NCBI GenBank assembly: GCA_026712715.1
Contig: JAPOPW010000007.1
Coordinates: 1 to 64,000, forward strand
DNA: 64,000 nt
DNA from: Immundisolibacterales bacterium
GTDB lineage: Bacteria > Pseudomonadota > Gammaproteobacteria > HK1
Reading direction: 5' to 3'
The notes beneath the pieces were generated by a model. The model did not search any database. It worked only from the letters and a program-made list of their open reading frames with translations, and had not been told where the DNA came from. Positions 23,030 to 57,168 of this stretch are shown one piece after another; the first letter of the stretch is position 1; each line of letters begins with the position of its first letter. The position numbers and the translations under genes are program-made.

Positions 23030-24259
23030 TCAGCTCGCGGCGAACGCCCGGAACGCGCGCTCCATCCGCTGCGTGGCCTCGCTCACGTCCTCGTCGCTGA
23101 TGTTGAGCGGCGGGAGGAGGCGCAGCACGCTCGGGCCGGCCACCAGCACGATCACGCCTTCGTCCGCGCAGGCATCCACGAGGGCCCCGGCCTTGCCCGC
23201 GTACGCCTCGCCCAGCTCCGCCCCGATGAGCAGACCCCTTCCTCGCACATCCGCGAAGAGGCCGAGCTCGGAGTCGATCCGGTTCAGGAACATCCGGAAC
23301 GCATCGCCCTGGCGGACGACGTTCGCGAGGAGATCGGACGACCCGGCGAGGCCGACCGCGACCCGCGCAGCCGCCGCCGCGACCGGATTCCCGCCGAATG
23401 TCGAACCGTGCGTGCCCGCCGAGAGCGCATCCGCCGCCCGCGCGCCGACGAGCACCGCCCCCATGGGCAGCCCCCCGGCGAGCGCCTTCGCCATGGTGAC
23501 CACGTCCGGCTCGATGCCGCGCTCCCATTCATGGGCGAAGAACTTCCCGCTGCGACCCATCCCGGACTGAATTTCGTCGAGCACCAGCAGGGCATCGTGG
23601 CGGCGGCAGAGGTCCTGGACATGGCGGAGGAAGCCCTGCCGGGCCGGTGTCACCCCGCCTTCGCCCTGCACCGGCTCCAGCATCACCGCGCAGGTGCGGT
23701 CGGAGATGGCGGCCTCGATCGCCTCCGGATCGTTGAAGGGGCAGTACGTGAACCCTCCCGGCAGCGGTTCGAACCCCTCCTGGTACTTCGGCTGCGCGGT
23801 CGCCGTCACGGTCGCGAGGGTGCGCCCGTGGAACGAGCCCTCGAACGTGATGATCTCGCGTTCCTCGGGCCCCCGGTCCGCCTCGCTCGCGCGCTTGCGC
23901 ACGATCTTGATGGCCGCCTCGTTGGCCTCCGCCCCCGAGTTGCAGAAGAAGACCCGCTCGGCGAACGTCGAGTCCACCAGCTCCTGCGCCAGCCGCACGG
24001 TGGACTCGACGTAGTAGAGGTTGCTCACGTGCAGCAGACGGCCCGCCTGGGCGGTCACCGCCGCCACCAGGTCCGGATGCCGGTGACCGAAGGAGTTCAC
24101 GCTGATCCCGGTGCCGAGATCGATGTACTCCCGCCCGTCGATGTCCCAGAGGCGGGAACCCTCTCCGTGGTCGAACACCACCGGCTTGGGAGCGTAGTTG
24201 GGCACGTAGGTACGGACCCCGGCGGCGACCAGGGCGTCGGTGGAAGTCTCGGGAGCCAT
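23030..24259 (-). CDS. argD: acetylornithine/succinyldiaminopimelate aminotransferase
   Basis: A 409-residue class III PLP aminotransferase. [26 protein letters not shown] (cofactor loop), [23 protein letters not shown] and the PLP Lys in [14 protein letters not shown] follow ArgD/AstC closely, as does the start [29 protein letters not shown]. ArgD enzymes usually also serve as DapC in lysine synthesis, consistent with dapE next door. Closely related GABA or succinylornithine transaminases cannot be excluded. Confidence 0.85.
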
Positions 24260-51717: not shown

Positions 51718-51755
51718 CCGGCGTTGCGGCCGGCCGCGGCCGGCCGCAACGCCGG
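51718..51755 (+). terminator. 38-base near-perfect palindrome after the cyclase gene
   Basis: CCGGCGTTGCGGCCGGCC and its exact reverse complement are separated by only GC. It lies 102 bases after the cyclase stop and 60 before the RidA-like gene. A very stable hairpin or cruciform; terminator by position, with no U tract. Confidence 0.45.
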
Positions 51756-55207: not shown

Positions 55208-55438
55208 CGCTGCGACCTCGACCCGGTTGCGGACGGAACCGTCGTTCGCGCCCGGCCCTTCGATTCCCGAGAGTAGGCGCCGCAACGCGGCAAGCCGCCG
55301 CAGTTGTCGCAACCGCGATACGACTACCGACCTACTCACGCAACGCGGCCGAAGACCGGCTGCACTCTCCGCACCCTTCGCCCCTCGCGGCAACCCGGAA
55401 GAAAGTTCCCGCGTTCTTGGGCGGTCGCCCGGGCGGCG

Positions 55439-56590
55439 TCAGATTCCTTGGGCGATTGCGACGTTCAGCCCTATCGCCTCGACACGCTCGTGGATGGGAA
55501 ACCGGGAGTCGCCGGGAAAGATCAGGCACAGCCGTTCGAGCATGAGGTCGGACAACGCCGAGTGCATCGACCGCGTCATCGCCGGCGCGCTCGTCCGCTT
55601 GAACTCGAACCCGATCCGCCGTCCGCCGTCGCTCACCAGCAGGTCGAGCTCCGCGCCCCGGTGCGTCGCCCAGTAGTAGCACCGATCCCAGTCGACTCCG
55701 AGAGTCCGCACGATCTCCTGCATGGCGAACCCCTCCCACGAAGCGCCGGACTTGGGATGGCCCGTGAGCGCAAACTCGCTGCCGACTCCCAGCAATGCAT
55801 GCAGCAAGCCCGTGTCAGCCACGTAGACTTTTGGCGCCTTGACCTGCCGTTTCTTCAGATTCTCGTGCCATGGCAGCAGCTTCCGCACCACGAGGGAGTC
55901 GACGAGCGCATCGACATAGGTGTTGACGGTAGGAGCGGTTACGCCCAAGGCTCGGCCAATCTCCGCGCCGTTCCAGCGATTCGCGTGGTAGTGCGCGACC
56001 ATCGTCCAGAAGCGGCGCATCGTCGTCGCAGGCACCGATACCCCAAGCTGTGGAAGGTCGCGTTCGAGGAAAGTCCGAATGAACGCTCCCCGCCATCCGT
56101 AGCTCCCCTCGTCGTCCGGAGCGAGAAAGGAAGGTGGGAAGCCGCCGCGCGACCAGAGACGCTCGACCAACTCGGTACCCGTCTCTCCAAGGCTGAAGGG
56201 GGGAAGCTCGTGGTATGCGATGCGGCCCGCCAGCGTCTCGGAGGACTGCCGGAGCAGCTCGGGTCCCGCGCTGCCCAGAACGAGAAAGCGGGCCGCATTG
56301 TCGGGCCGGTCCACAAGGACGCGAAGCAGCCGAAAGAGCCCTTCCAGGCGCTGTACCTCGTCGATGACGATCAGCCCCCGAAGAGGTTCGAGCGCGAGCT
56401 TCGGGTCCGCAAGCTTCGCCTCGTCCGTCGGGTCTTCGAGATCGAAGACCGTGACCGGTTCCCGTTCGCGGCCAATCAGCCCGCGAGCCAGCGTCGTCTT
56501 GCCGACCTGCCGTGCGCCGATGAGTCCGACGACCGGAAACCGCCGGAGCAGCTCACGGACCGATGCTTCGTGCTGAGCCCGAGGAATCAT
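55439..56590 (-). CDS. AAA-type ATPase with DUF4143 domain
   Basis: A 383-residue protein. The N-terminal P-loop ATPase (AAA_14) has VGLIGARQVGKTTLA and Walker B LIVIDEVQRL, then LGSAGPELLRQSSETLAGRI, typical of this group. The C-terminal DUF4143 region has a winged-helix part (GRALGVTAPTVNTYVDALVD) and a restriction-endonuclease-like motif, GAELDLLV ... GFEFKRT. Function unknown; such genes are patchily distributed and behave as mobile or selfish cargo. The start lies 7 bases after a perfect TATAAT, with a perfect 14-bp inverted repeat over that region, suggesting self-control and a leaderless message. Confidence 0.88.
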   Translation of the reverse strand: MIPRAQHEASVRELLRRFPVVGLIGARQVGKTTLARGLIGREREPVTVFDLEDPTDEAKLADPKLALEPLRGLIVIDEVQRLEGLFRLLRVLVDRPDNAARFLVLGSAGPELLRQSSETLAGRIAYHELPPFSLGETGTELVERLWSRGGFPPSFLAPDDEGSYGWRGAFIRTFLERDLPQLGVSVPATTMRRFWTMVAHYHANRWNGAEIGRALGVTAPTVNTYVDALVDSLVVRKLLPWHENLKKRQVKAPKVYVADTGLLHALLGVGSEFALTGHPKSGASWEGFAMQEIVRTLGVDWDRCYYWATHRGAELDLLVSDGGRRIGFEFKRTSAPAMTRSMHSALSDLMLERLCLIFPGDSRFPIHERVEAIGLNVAIAQGI

Positions 56591-56597
56591 CCGTGGA

Positions 56598-56603
56598 ATT
56601 ATA
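56598..56603 (-). promoter_or_regulatory. consensus -10 of the DUF4143 ATPase gene
   Basis: A perfect TATAAT on the minus strand ends 7 bases before the ATG. Transcription would start at or next to the start codon. It partly overlaps the inverted repeat; no -35 match is present. Confidence 0.5.
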
Positions 56604-56642
56604 CGGGAAAATCTAAGATGTATTTTTCGATTTTCCCGTATA
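56600..56642. promoter_or_regulatory. perfect 14-bp inverted repeat, probable operator
   Basis: TATACGGGAAAATC (56600-56613) and GATTTTCCCGTATA (56629-56642) are exact reverse complements, 15 bases apart, in an AT-rich patch within GC-rich surroundings. The spacing places the two half-sites about 29 bases centre to centre, close to three helical turns. Likely bound by a dimer, possibly the ATPase itself. Confidence 0.65.
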
Positions 56643-56659
56643 GATCATCTGGGCCACCT

Positions 56660-56681
56660 GAATGATCTGAGAATGATCTGA
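56660..56681. repeat. tandem 11-base direct repeat
   Basis: GAATGATCTGA occurs twice head to tail, 18 bases beyond the inverted repeat upstream of the DUF4143 ATPase gene. It may be a second binding site or a slip duplication. Confidence 0.5.
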
Positions 56682-56859
56682 ATAGTCCTGAACATCCGGC
56701 ACGGAACGTCGCCGGCGGCGCCCGGGCGGGGGACGCCGGGGCGAGAATCCATCGGGGGGGGTCCCGTGCGCGCCACCGGAAATCGGTCCCGTCCCGGCCC
56801 GCAACGGCCGCGGCCATCAGCGCATCGTCCGGGAGTTCGTCGATATTCGAAAATGTAGA

Positions 56860-57168
56860 TCAGGGGTCGGCGGCGGCGAGGAGGGCGGCGGCGATCTCCT
56901 CCCATTCGTCGTCGAGGGGGGCGGCCGAGGCGGGGAGGTCCGCGCGCCGGTACCAGTAGCCGGCGTTCGCGAGGTCGCCCTCGACCCGGTGCAGGTGGGC
57001 GTGCACCCACGAGCCGTCCCGGCCGCCGTCGCTCTGGGCGGCGCCGTGGGCCGCGTCCCACTCGTCGCGGGCGAGGTGCCAGAGCGCCCGCAGGGCGGGG
57101 CTGAGACCTTCCGGCGGCTCCCCGGCCGCGCCCTTTGCCGCGGCCCTGAATTCCTTCGCGTCCATCAT
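56860..57168 (-). CDS. conserved hypothetical protein
   Basis: A 102-residue soluble protein of unknown function, with the recognisable core LWHLARDEWDAAHGAAQSDGG, then WVHAHLHRVEGDLANAGYWYRRA. I recall similar proteins as a conserved family in many environmental bacteria; no activity is known to me. Its start overlaps the stop of the CitE-like gene by 4 bases, so it is cotranscribed and may relate to that pathway. Confidence 0.75.
   Translation of the reverse strand: MMDAKEFRAAAKGAAGEPPEGLSPALRALWHLARDEWDAAHGAAQSDGGRDGSWVHAHLHRVEGDLANAGYWYRRADLPASAAPLDDEWEEIAAALLAAADP

Follow-up and report, generated by a model that had tools for sequence, protein, structure and literature searches.

Introduction

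Directly ahead of the start codon of an ATPase gene in an Immundisolibacterales bacterium, a perfect palindrome overlaps the -10 element of the promoter, and the question raised by this locus is whether the palindrome is an operator and, if so, which protein binds it. The original prediction, made on the letters of the window (the whole stretch of 64,000 nt analyzed here), took it for an autoregulatory operator of a probably leaderless gene. Our comparison with the upstream regions of homologous genes indicates that the operator is real and found across the family, that it sits on a promoter of the leaderless kind, and that it is most likely autoregulatory.

The Palindrome and the Promoter in the Window

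The start-proximal arm of the palindrome (56600-56613) reads TATACGGGAAAATC and is an exact inverted copy of the start-distal arm (56629-56642), i.e., of the exact reverse complement of TATACGGGAAAATC; a 15-nt spacer (56614-56628) lies between them, and no strand is assigned to arms or spacer. This is precisely what had been described, two perfect 14-bp arms 15 bases apart that cover the -10 region. The -10 hexamer TATAAT (56603-56598, minus strand) has its TATA in common with the start-proximal arm and is placed 7 nt (56597-56591) ahead of the ATG (56590-56588, minus strand), at or beside which transcription probably starts. No Shine-Dalgarno-like run occurs between TATAAT and ATG, so that the earlier statement of a perfect TATAAT ending 7 bases from the ATG without a ribosome site was confirmed. 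No recognizable -35 match is found 17 nt upstream of TATAAT in the window, the sequence there being AAAATA.

Taken alone, the palindrome is ordinary and suggestive only, and it is the comparative evidence given below that lifts it beyond chance. Of the perfect inverted repeats in the 64 kb whose spacers do not exceed 30 nt, one is longer and one other also has 14-bp arms, which puts the palindrome in shared second place; when up to three mismatches are allowed, the half-site matches three places in the window, where shuffling predicts 0.9. The longer repeat (51718-51755) is a perfect 38-bp G+C-rich palindrome with 19-bp arms and no spacer, located between two plus-strand ORFs and lacking a T run after it, and the other 14-bp repeat (23965-24012) has a 20-nt spacer and G+C-rich surroundings. 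A tandem 11-bp repeat, GAATGATCTGA, is found at 56660-56681, just upstream of the palindrome.

The ATPase and Its Family

The gene (55439-56590, minus strand) encodes a protein of 383 aa composed of an ATPase, a predicted winged helix and a PD-(D/E)XK-like part. Pfam assigns AAA_14 (3.8e-24, 85.6 bits, curated cut-off 27) and DUF4143 (1.2e-42, 145.8 bits, curated cut-off 28.1) to it, and PADLOC matches it to the candidate defence family PDC-S01 (3.8e-77, model PDLC04790); PHROGs and NCBIfam searches gave no useful name for it. The Walker A region (residues 24-33; 56492-56521, minus strand) has G25, G30, K31 and T33 invariant in 18 diverse sequences, as are D77 and E78 of the Walker A/B set. 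In the structure model (mean pLDDT 94.2), residues 188-257 (55820-56029, minus strand) form helix-turn-helix-like helices and a wing, and we regard them as a predicted winged helix-turn-helix; Pfam HTH matches are weak and below the cut-off in the 383-aa protein, and a Thermus homologue passes two HTH families. The C-terminal part, residues 258-383 (55442-55819, minus strand), keeps E286, E314, D316, E329 and K331 invariant in the same 18 sequences.

The combination of AAA_14, DUF4143 and invariant nuclease-like residues resembles PDC-S01, a group of single-gene ATPases that bear a PD-(D/E)XK domain (PMC12988326). This archaeal immunity survey counts PDC-S01 ATPases among the commonest candidate defence genes of prokaryotes, ranks them as the fourth most common defence and describes validation as pending for most such candidates (PMC12988326). 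The view that the gene is of a defence type is backed by the PADLOC match, at the level of a candidate family. The closest solved folds to residues 1-268 are two archaeal ATPases, PABY2304 (2qen; Z 17.0, rmsd 3.0, 246 residues aligned) and SSO1545 (2fna; Z 16.4, rmsd 3.2, 248 aligned), which are tied; their identity is 18-19% and the alignment leaves the C-terminal part uncovered. The next matches include NLR, CED-4 and Avs5 chains among others, from which we have labeled the two ATPases "STAND-like"; a common fold is not equal to a demonstrated function. In the open-access literature we found no ligand, target or regulation reported for a PDC-S01 ATPase.

Conservation within the Genome and the Genus

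The exact palindrome occurs once in the 5.05-Mb genome, and the same holds for its core, GGGAAAATC-N10-20-GATTTTCCC. As a signature of the family the exact palindrome was rejected, having been found in one of 274 genomes of the class, the window's own; it was absent from viral contigs, and a relaxed form had three matches in the genome collection, none of them adjoining a DUF4143 gene. A genome of the same genus (G658) carries an orthologue with 87% protein identity, in which the start-proximal arm is identical at 14/14 positions and the start-distal arm at 12/14 (26/28 in all), the spacer keeps its length with 6/15 identical positions, and the next 40 nt upstream agree at 8/40. The arms have therefore been held while the spacer and the flank have drifted. 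A second copy in the window's own genome (L007/L040) has a different inverted repeat ahead of its start, and this observation led us to collect homologues.

The slot that holds the gene (window 55235-56860; L075, 1774-2604; L076, 1058-8931) is variable. One congener, G657, has another gene in place of the ATPase, which we take to be GST-like, and G658 has several extra genes between the palindrome and the next gene, among them a presumably transposase-like ORF. Because of the gene in the G657 slot and the insertion beside the palindrome in G658, no clean empty site is available and the borders of a cassette are unreadable. Copies of the family are frequent on plasmids (131 to 351 matching plasmid records). 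DUF4143 genes that look truncated or frame-shifted were seen in the window's own genome (L011-L014) and in relatives (L078, L080, L082 and L089), some with the upstream repeat kept, and such decayed copies suggest frequent gain and decay.

Inverted Repeats and a Shared Half-Site among Homologues

Homologues were taken from 28 places in 21 of 398 genomes of the phylum (window included), from 18 plasmid loci picked for diversity among the 131 to 351 matching records, and from 19 stretches of relatives, one of which is the G658 orthologue. From 67 loci we removed L029 (no start), L044 (no N-terminus), L010 (no match) and L091 (duplicate), and the remaining 63, including the window, were scored. 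L046 was scored with a corrected start, upon which its repeat became significant, and the truncated or partial genes L011-L014 were left out of the 63, L012 being examined singly. The controls were 44 annotated genes, all of them neighbors of the plasmid loci. The region from -75 to +9 of each start was tested for inverted repeats against dinucleotide shuffles.

A significant inverted repeat was found in 47/63 homologues at p<0.05 and in 36/63 at p<0.01, against 7/44 and 6/44 of the controls, and the repeat scores of the two groups differ at p=4e-10; the homologues are related to each other and their counts are accordingly non-independent. The other 16 homologues had no significant repeat, and those of Thermus (L054) and Sinorhizobium (L062) had none. 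Typical examples are of the form CCTTGCAAAT...ATTGCAAGG followed by ATG in relatives from Rhizobium, Sphingobium and Roseovarius; L020 has ACCATGAAAATCG, and a Moraxella homologue has a perfect 21-bp arm. The dyad centers lie at -19 to -22 in 24 of the 47 and at -28 to -34 in 16, the window being at -31, and both main placements overlap the predicted promoter. A shift of one helical turn between the main positions (about -19 and -31) was noted and is not put forward as a rule, since other centers lie at -11, -26, -40 and -48.

When the arms are read from the dyad, most of those in homologues fit one register, approximately CCTTGAAAATTCGG, the half-site of the window being GGGAAAATC. A model of two half-sites, trained for each locus without that locus and its relatives of >60% identity, recognized 50/63 homologues at p<=0.02 and 0/44 controls. 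The gap between the 14-mers was 9 nt in 44 of these 50 and 10 nt in the other 6, and so the centers of the half-sites are 23-24 bp apart. For a held-out set we used 41 IMG/VR loci, which after removal of two without an N-terminus and six duplicates left 33, none of them used in training. At p<=0.05 the model recognized 5/7 of those with at least 37% identity and 5/26 of those below, and the plain repeat test was positive in 11/33; judged by these counts, the arrangement is strong near the clade of the window and fades with distance. Three loci (L026, L028 and L035) have TTCCGATATGC in common at the start; their ATG falls within the stretch that forms an operator half-site in other homologues, which would fit an upstream shift of the start codon into the half-site.

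The original prediction had named unrelated sequences upstream of close homologues as the outcome that would speak against it, and what was found in the homologues was related half-sites in the same arrangement. It had also proposed a search for the same palindrome upstream of other DUF4143 genes; beyond the genus this exact palindrome was not found in the genomes and contigs searched, but related half-sites in a like arrangement were.

Predicted Leaderless Promoters

We counted a hexamer as a -10 element when its second base was A, its sixth base T, and it lay 6-8 nt before the start. Such an element was found in 36/63 homologues and 4/44 controls, while shuffles gave a mean of 6.6/63 and a maximum of 15. 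A Shine-Dalgarno-like run precedes only 2/63 homologues, and none of the 47 with a significant repeat, compared with 16/44 controls. The position of the -10 element and the near lack of ribosome sites support the leaderless reading, and the starts of homologues look like those of leaderless messages; what had been called "probably leaderless" on the basis of one gene is supported by the comparison of many. We found no account of an operator or a leaderless promoter for the PDC-S01/DUF4143 family in the open-access literature.

Which Protein Would Bind the Operator

We think it probable that the palindrome serves as an operator for the very gene it precedes, and that a dimer of the ATPase would bind it via the winged helix and repress its own promoter. 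The predicted winged helices of the dimer would contact the two inverted half-sites, about two helical turns apart. The operator overlaps the -10 element and the spacer between -35 and -10, with the transcript beginning at or beside the ATG, and because operator and promoter overlap, a bound dimer would exclude RNA polymerase. In this way a single-gene ATPase-nuclease of the candidate defence family PDC-S01 would regulate itself negatively, and its expression may rise upon release, perhaps via ATP turnover or contact with foreign DNA. It is by comparison among homologues that the operator and its arrangement are shown, as is the leaderless promoter, and the relatives' own versions at about the same spot suggest that the protein switches off its own gene.

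The similarity of operators tracks the identity of proteins (rho 0.53). Paralogues of one genome have differing operators, with no excess of similarity within a genome (residual -0.022, p=0.77, 11 pairs), and operators that follow the protein and not the host genome speak against a common host factor. Covariation was examined in 40 loci, i.e., the 47 repeat-positive loci minus L061, L032, L059 and four with short proteins; for the covariation test with domains cut by structure and for the paralogue test, L060 was also dropped, leaving 39. With domains cut by structure, the winged helix showed no covariation with the operator in excess of that of the remaining protein (partial r 0.095, p=0.12), whereas the AAA part (p=0.014) and the nuclease part (p=0.023) did. 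A weak covariation of the winged helix seen with the first cut (residues 201-245, p=0.027; residues 246-300, p=0.03) vanished with structure boundaries and was discarded. The proteins of L079 and L084 have nearly identical recognition helices and several half-site positions that are unlike. Because the winged-helix test failed, binding by the protein itself is what we infer, and repression and release are likewise proposed; of the suggested "autoregulatory operator", the operator is supported by comparison, and for self-regulation the covariation test was inconclusive to negative.

The missing preference for the winged helix is what would be expected if the operator were bound by some other regulator, encoded by the host or by a neighboring gene. 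This explanation is nevertheless unlikely, because paralogue operators within one genome differ and track the protein, the core palindrome is unique to this gene within its genome, and annotated neighbors, inspected by eye, vary among the 17 plasmid loci (of 18) that are annotated. In the same inspection no constant partner was seen among annotated plasmid neighbors, and a toxin-antitoxin pair was rejected. Slightly less likely still is that the inverted repeat is primarily a DNA site for an enzymatic role, such as self-marking, a nuclease target or the end of a cassette, its promoter position being secondary. The invariance of the nuclease-like residues in 18 sequences, the other gene occupying the slot in a congener and the abundance of the gene on plasmids would fit this idea, but a second copy is absent from the other end of the gene, and the repeat is placed relative to the -10 and the start codon, as a regulator requires. 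Also against it, the homology with the G658 copy stops at the palindrome, and this is explicable by selection on coding and operator DNA.

That the repeat works as a 5'-terminal hairpin of the transcript, in attenuation, stability or translation control, seems improbable to us. Some homologues (e.g., L021 and L060) have long arms with short loops that could fold as RNA; against it, the half-site sequence and the distance between the half-site centers are conserved in addition to pairing, no Rfam match was obtained at E up to 1, and with a start at or beside the ATG the repeat would be largely untranscribed. That the repeat is a matter of chance, or an ordinary trait of A+T-rich intergenic DNA, we hold to be very improbable. 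Two more perfect repeats of at least 14 bp in the 64 kb and the 7/44 significant controls agree with it, but comparative results already contradict it, the repeat being found in 47/63 homologues with a common half-site and a fixed spacing, and the orthologue keeping the arms and not the spacer.

Relation to Known Systems and Significance

In bifunctional proteins of the BirA kind, an enzyme is its own repressor through a winged helix. The likeness to the present ATPase is that enzyme and self-repressor would be united in one protein, the autorepression being proposed here; the difference is that the enzyme is another one and is without a known ligand. RptR is a small DNA-binding dimer that acts at a palindromic site to shut down the promoter of a defence island of the restriction-modification type (PMC12255303). 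Repression of a promoter by a dimer at a palindromic site, as we propose for the ATPase, is similar to this; RptR, however, is a separate regulator whose site combines a 6-bp palindrome with three direct repeats, whereas here operator and presumed effector are parts of a single gene and the operator is a long palindrome of two half-sites. To PDC-S01, for which we found neither described in the open-access literature, the present analysis adds the predicted operator and leaderless promoter.

More tentatively, PDC-S01 proteins in general might be self-repressing immune ATPases, in which a dimer sits on a dedicated operator, cross-talk between paralogues is avoided by divergence of operators, and foreign DNA pulls the protein off so that more protein is made; we regard this wider reading as possible and rather doubtful. 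In line with it, the Thermus thermophilus HB27 gene TT_P0211 (AAA 14, DUF4143) is described as rising 6.6-fold only when plasmid and Argonaute are present together (PMC4406477), a hint only, because TT_P0211 is a distant homologue. Judging from its location and domain content, TT_P0211 probably corresponds to TT_RS11170. The start of TT_RS11170 reads TTGTCT-17-TATCAT-6-ATG, the -10 being overlapped by the short inverted repeat TGAATGA-cta-TCATTCA, and the repeat scorer chose another repeat, upstream. A closer Thermus homologue on pTT27 (H116-H119) is interrupted by ISTth8 in HB27 records and has a full match in the HB8 record.

The point of interest is the conservation of an operator together with a very common, uncharacterized family of ATPase-nucleases. 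With a conserved operator, work on this family gains a defined DNA partner, a promoter prediction and an easy reporter assay. Should the protein be its own repressor, the level of its expression would contribute both to the safe keeping of the system and to its activation, and the divergence of operators would provide a way to sort its many paralogues.
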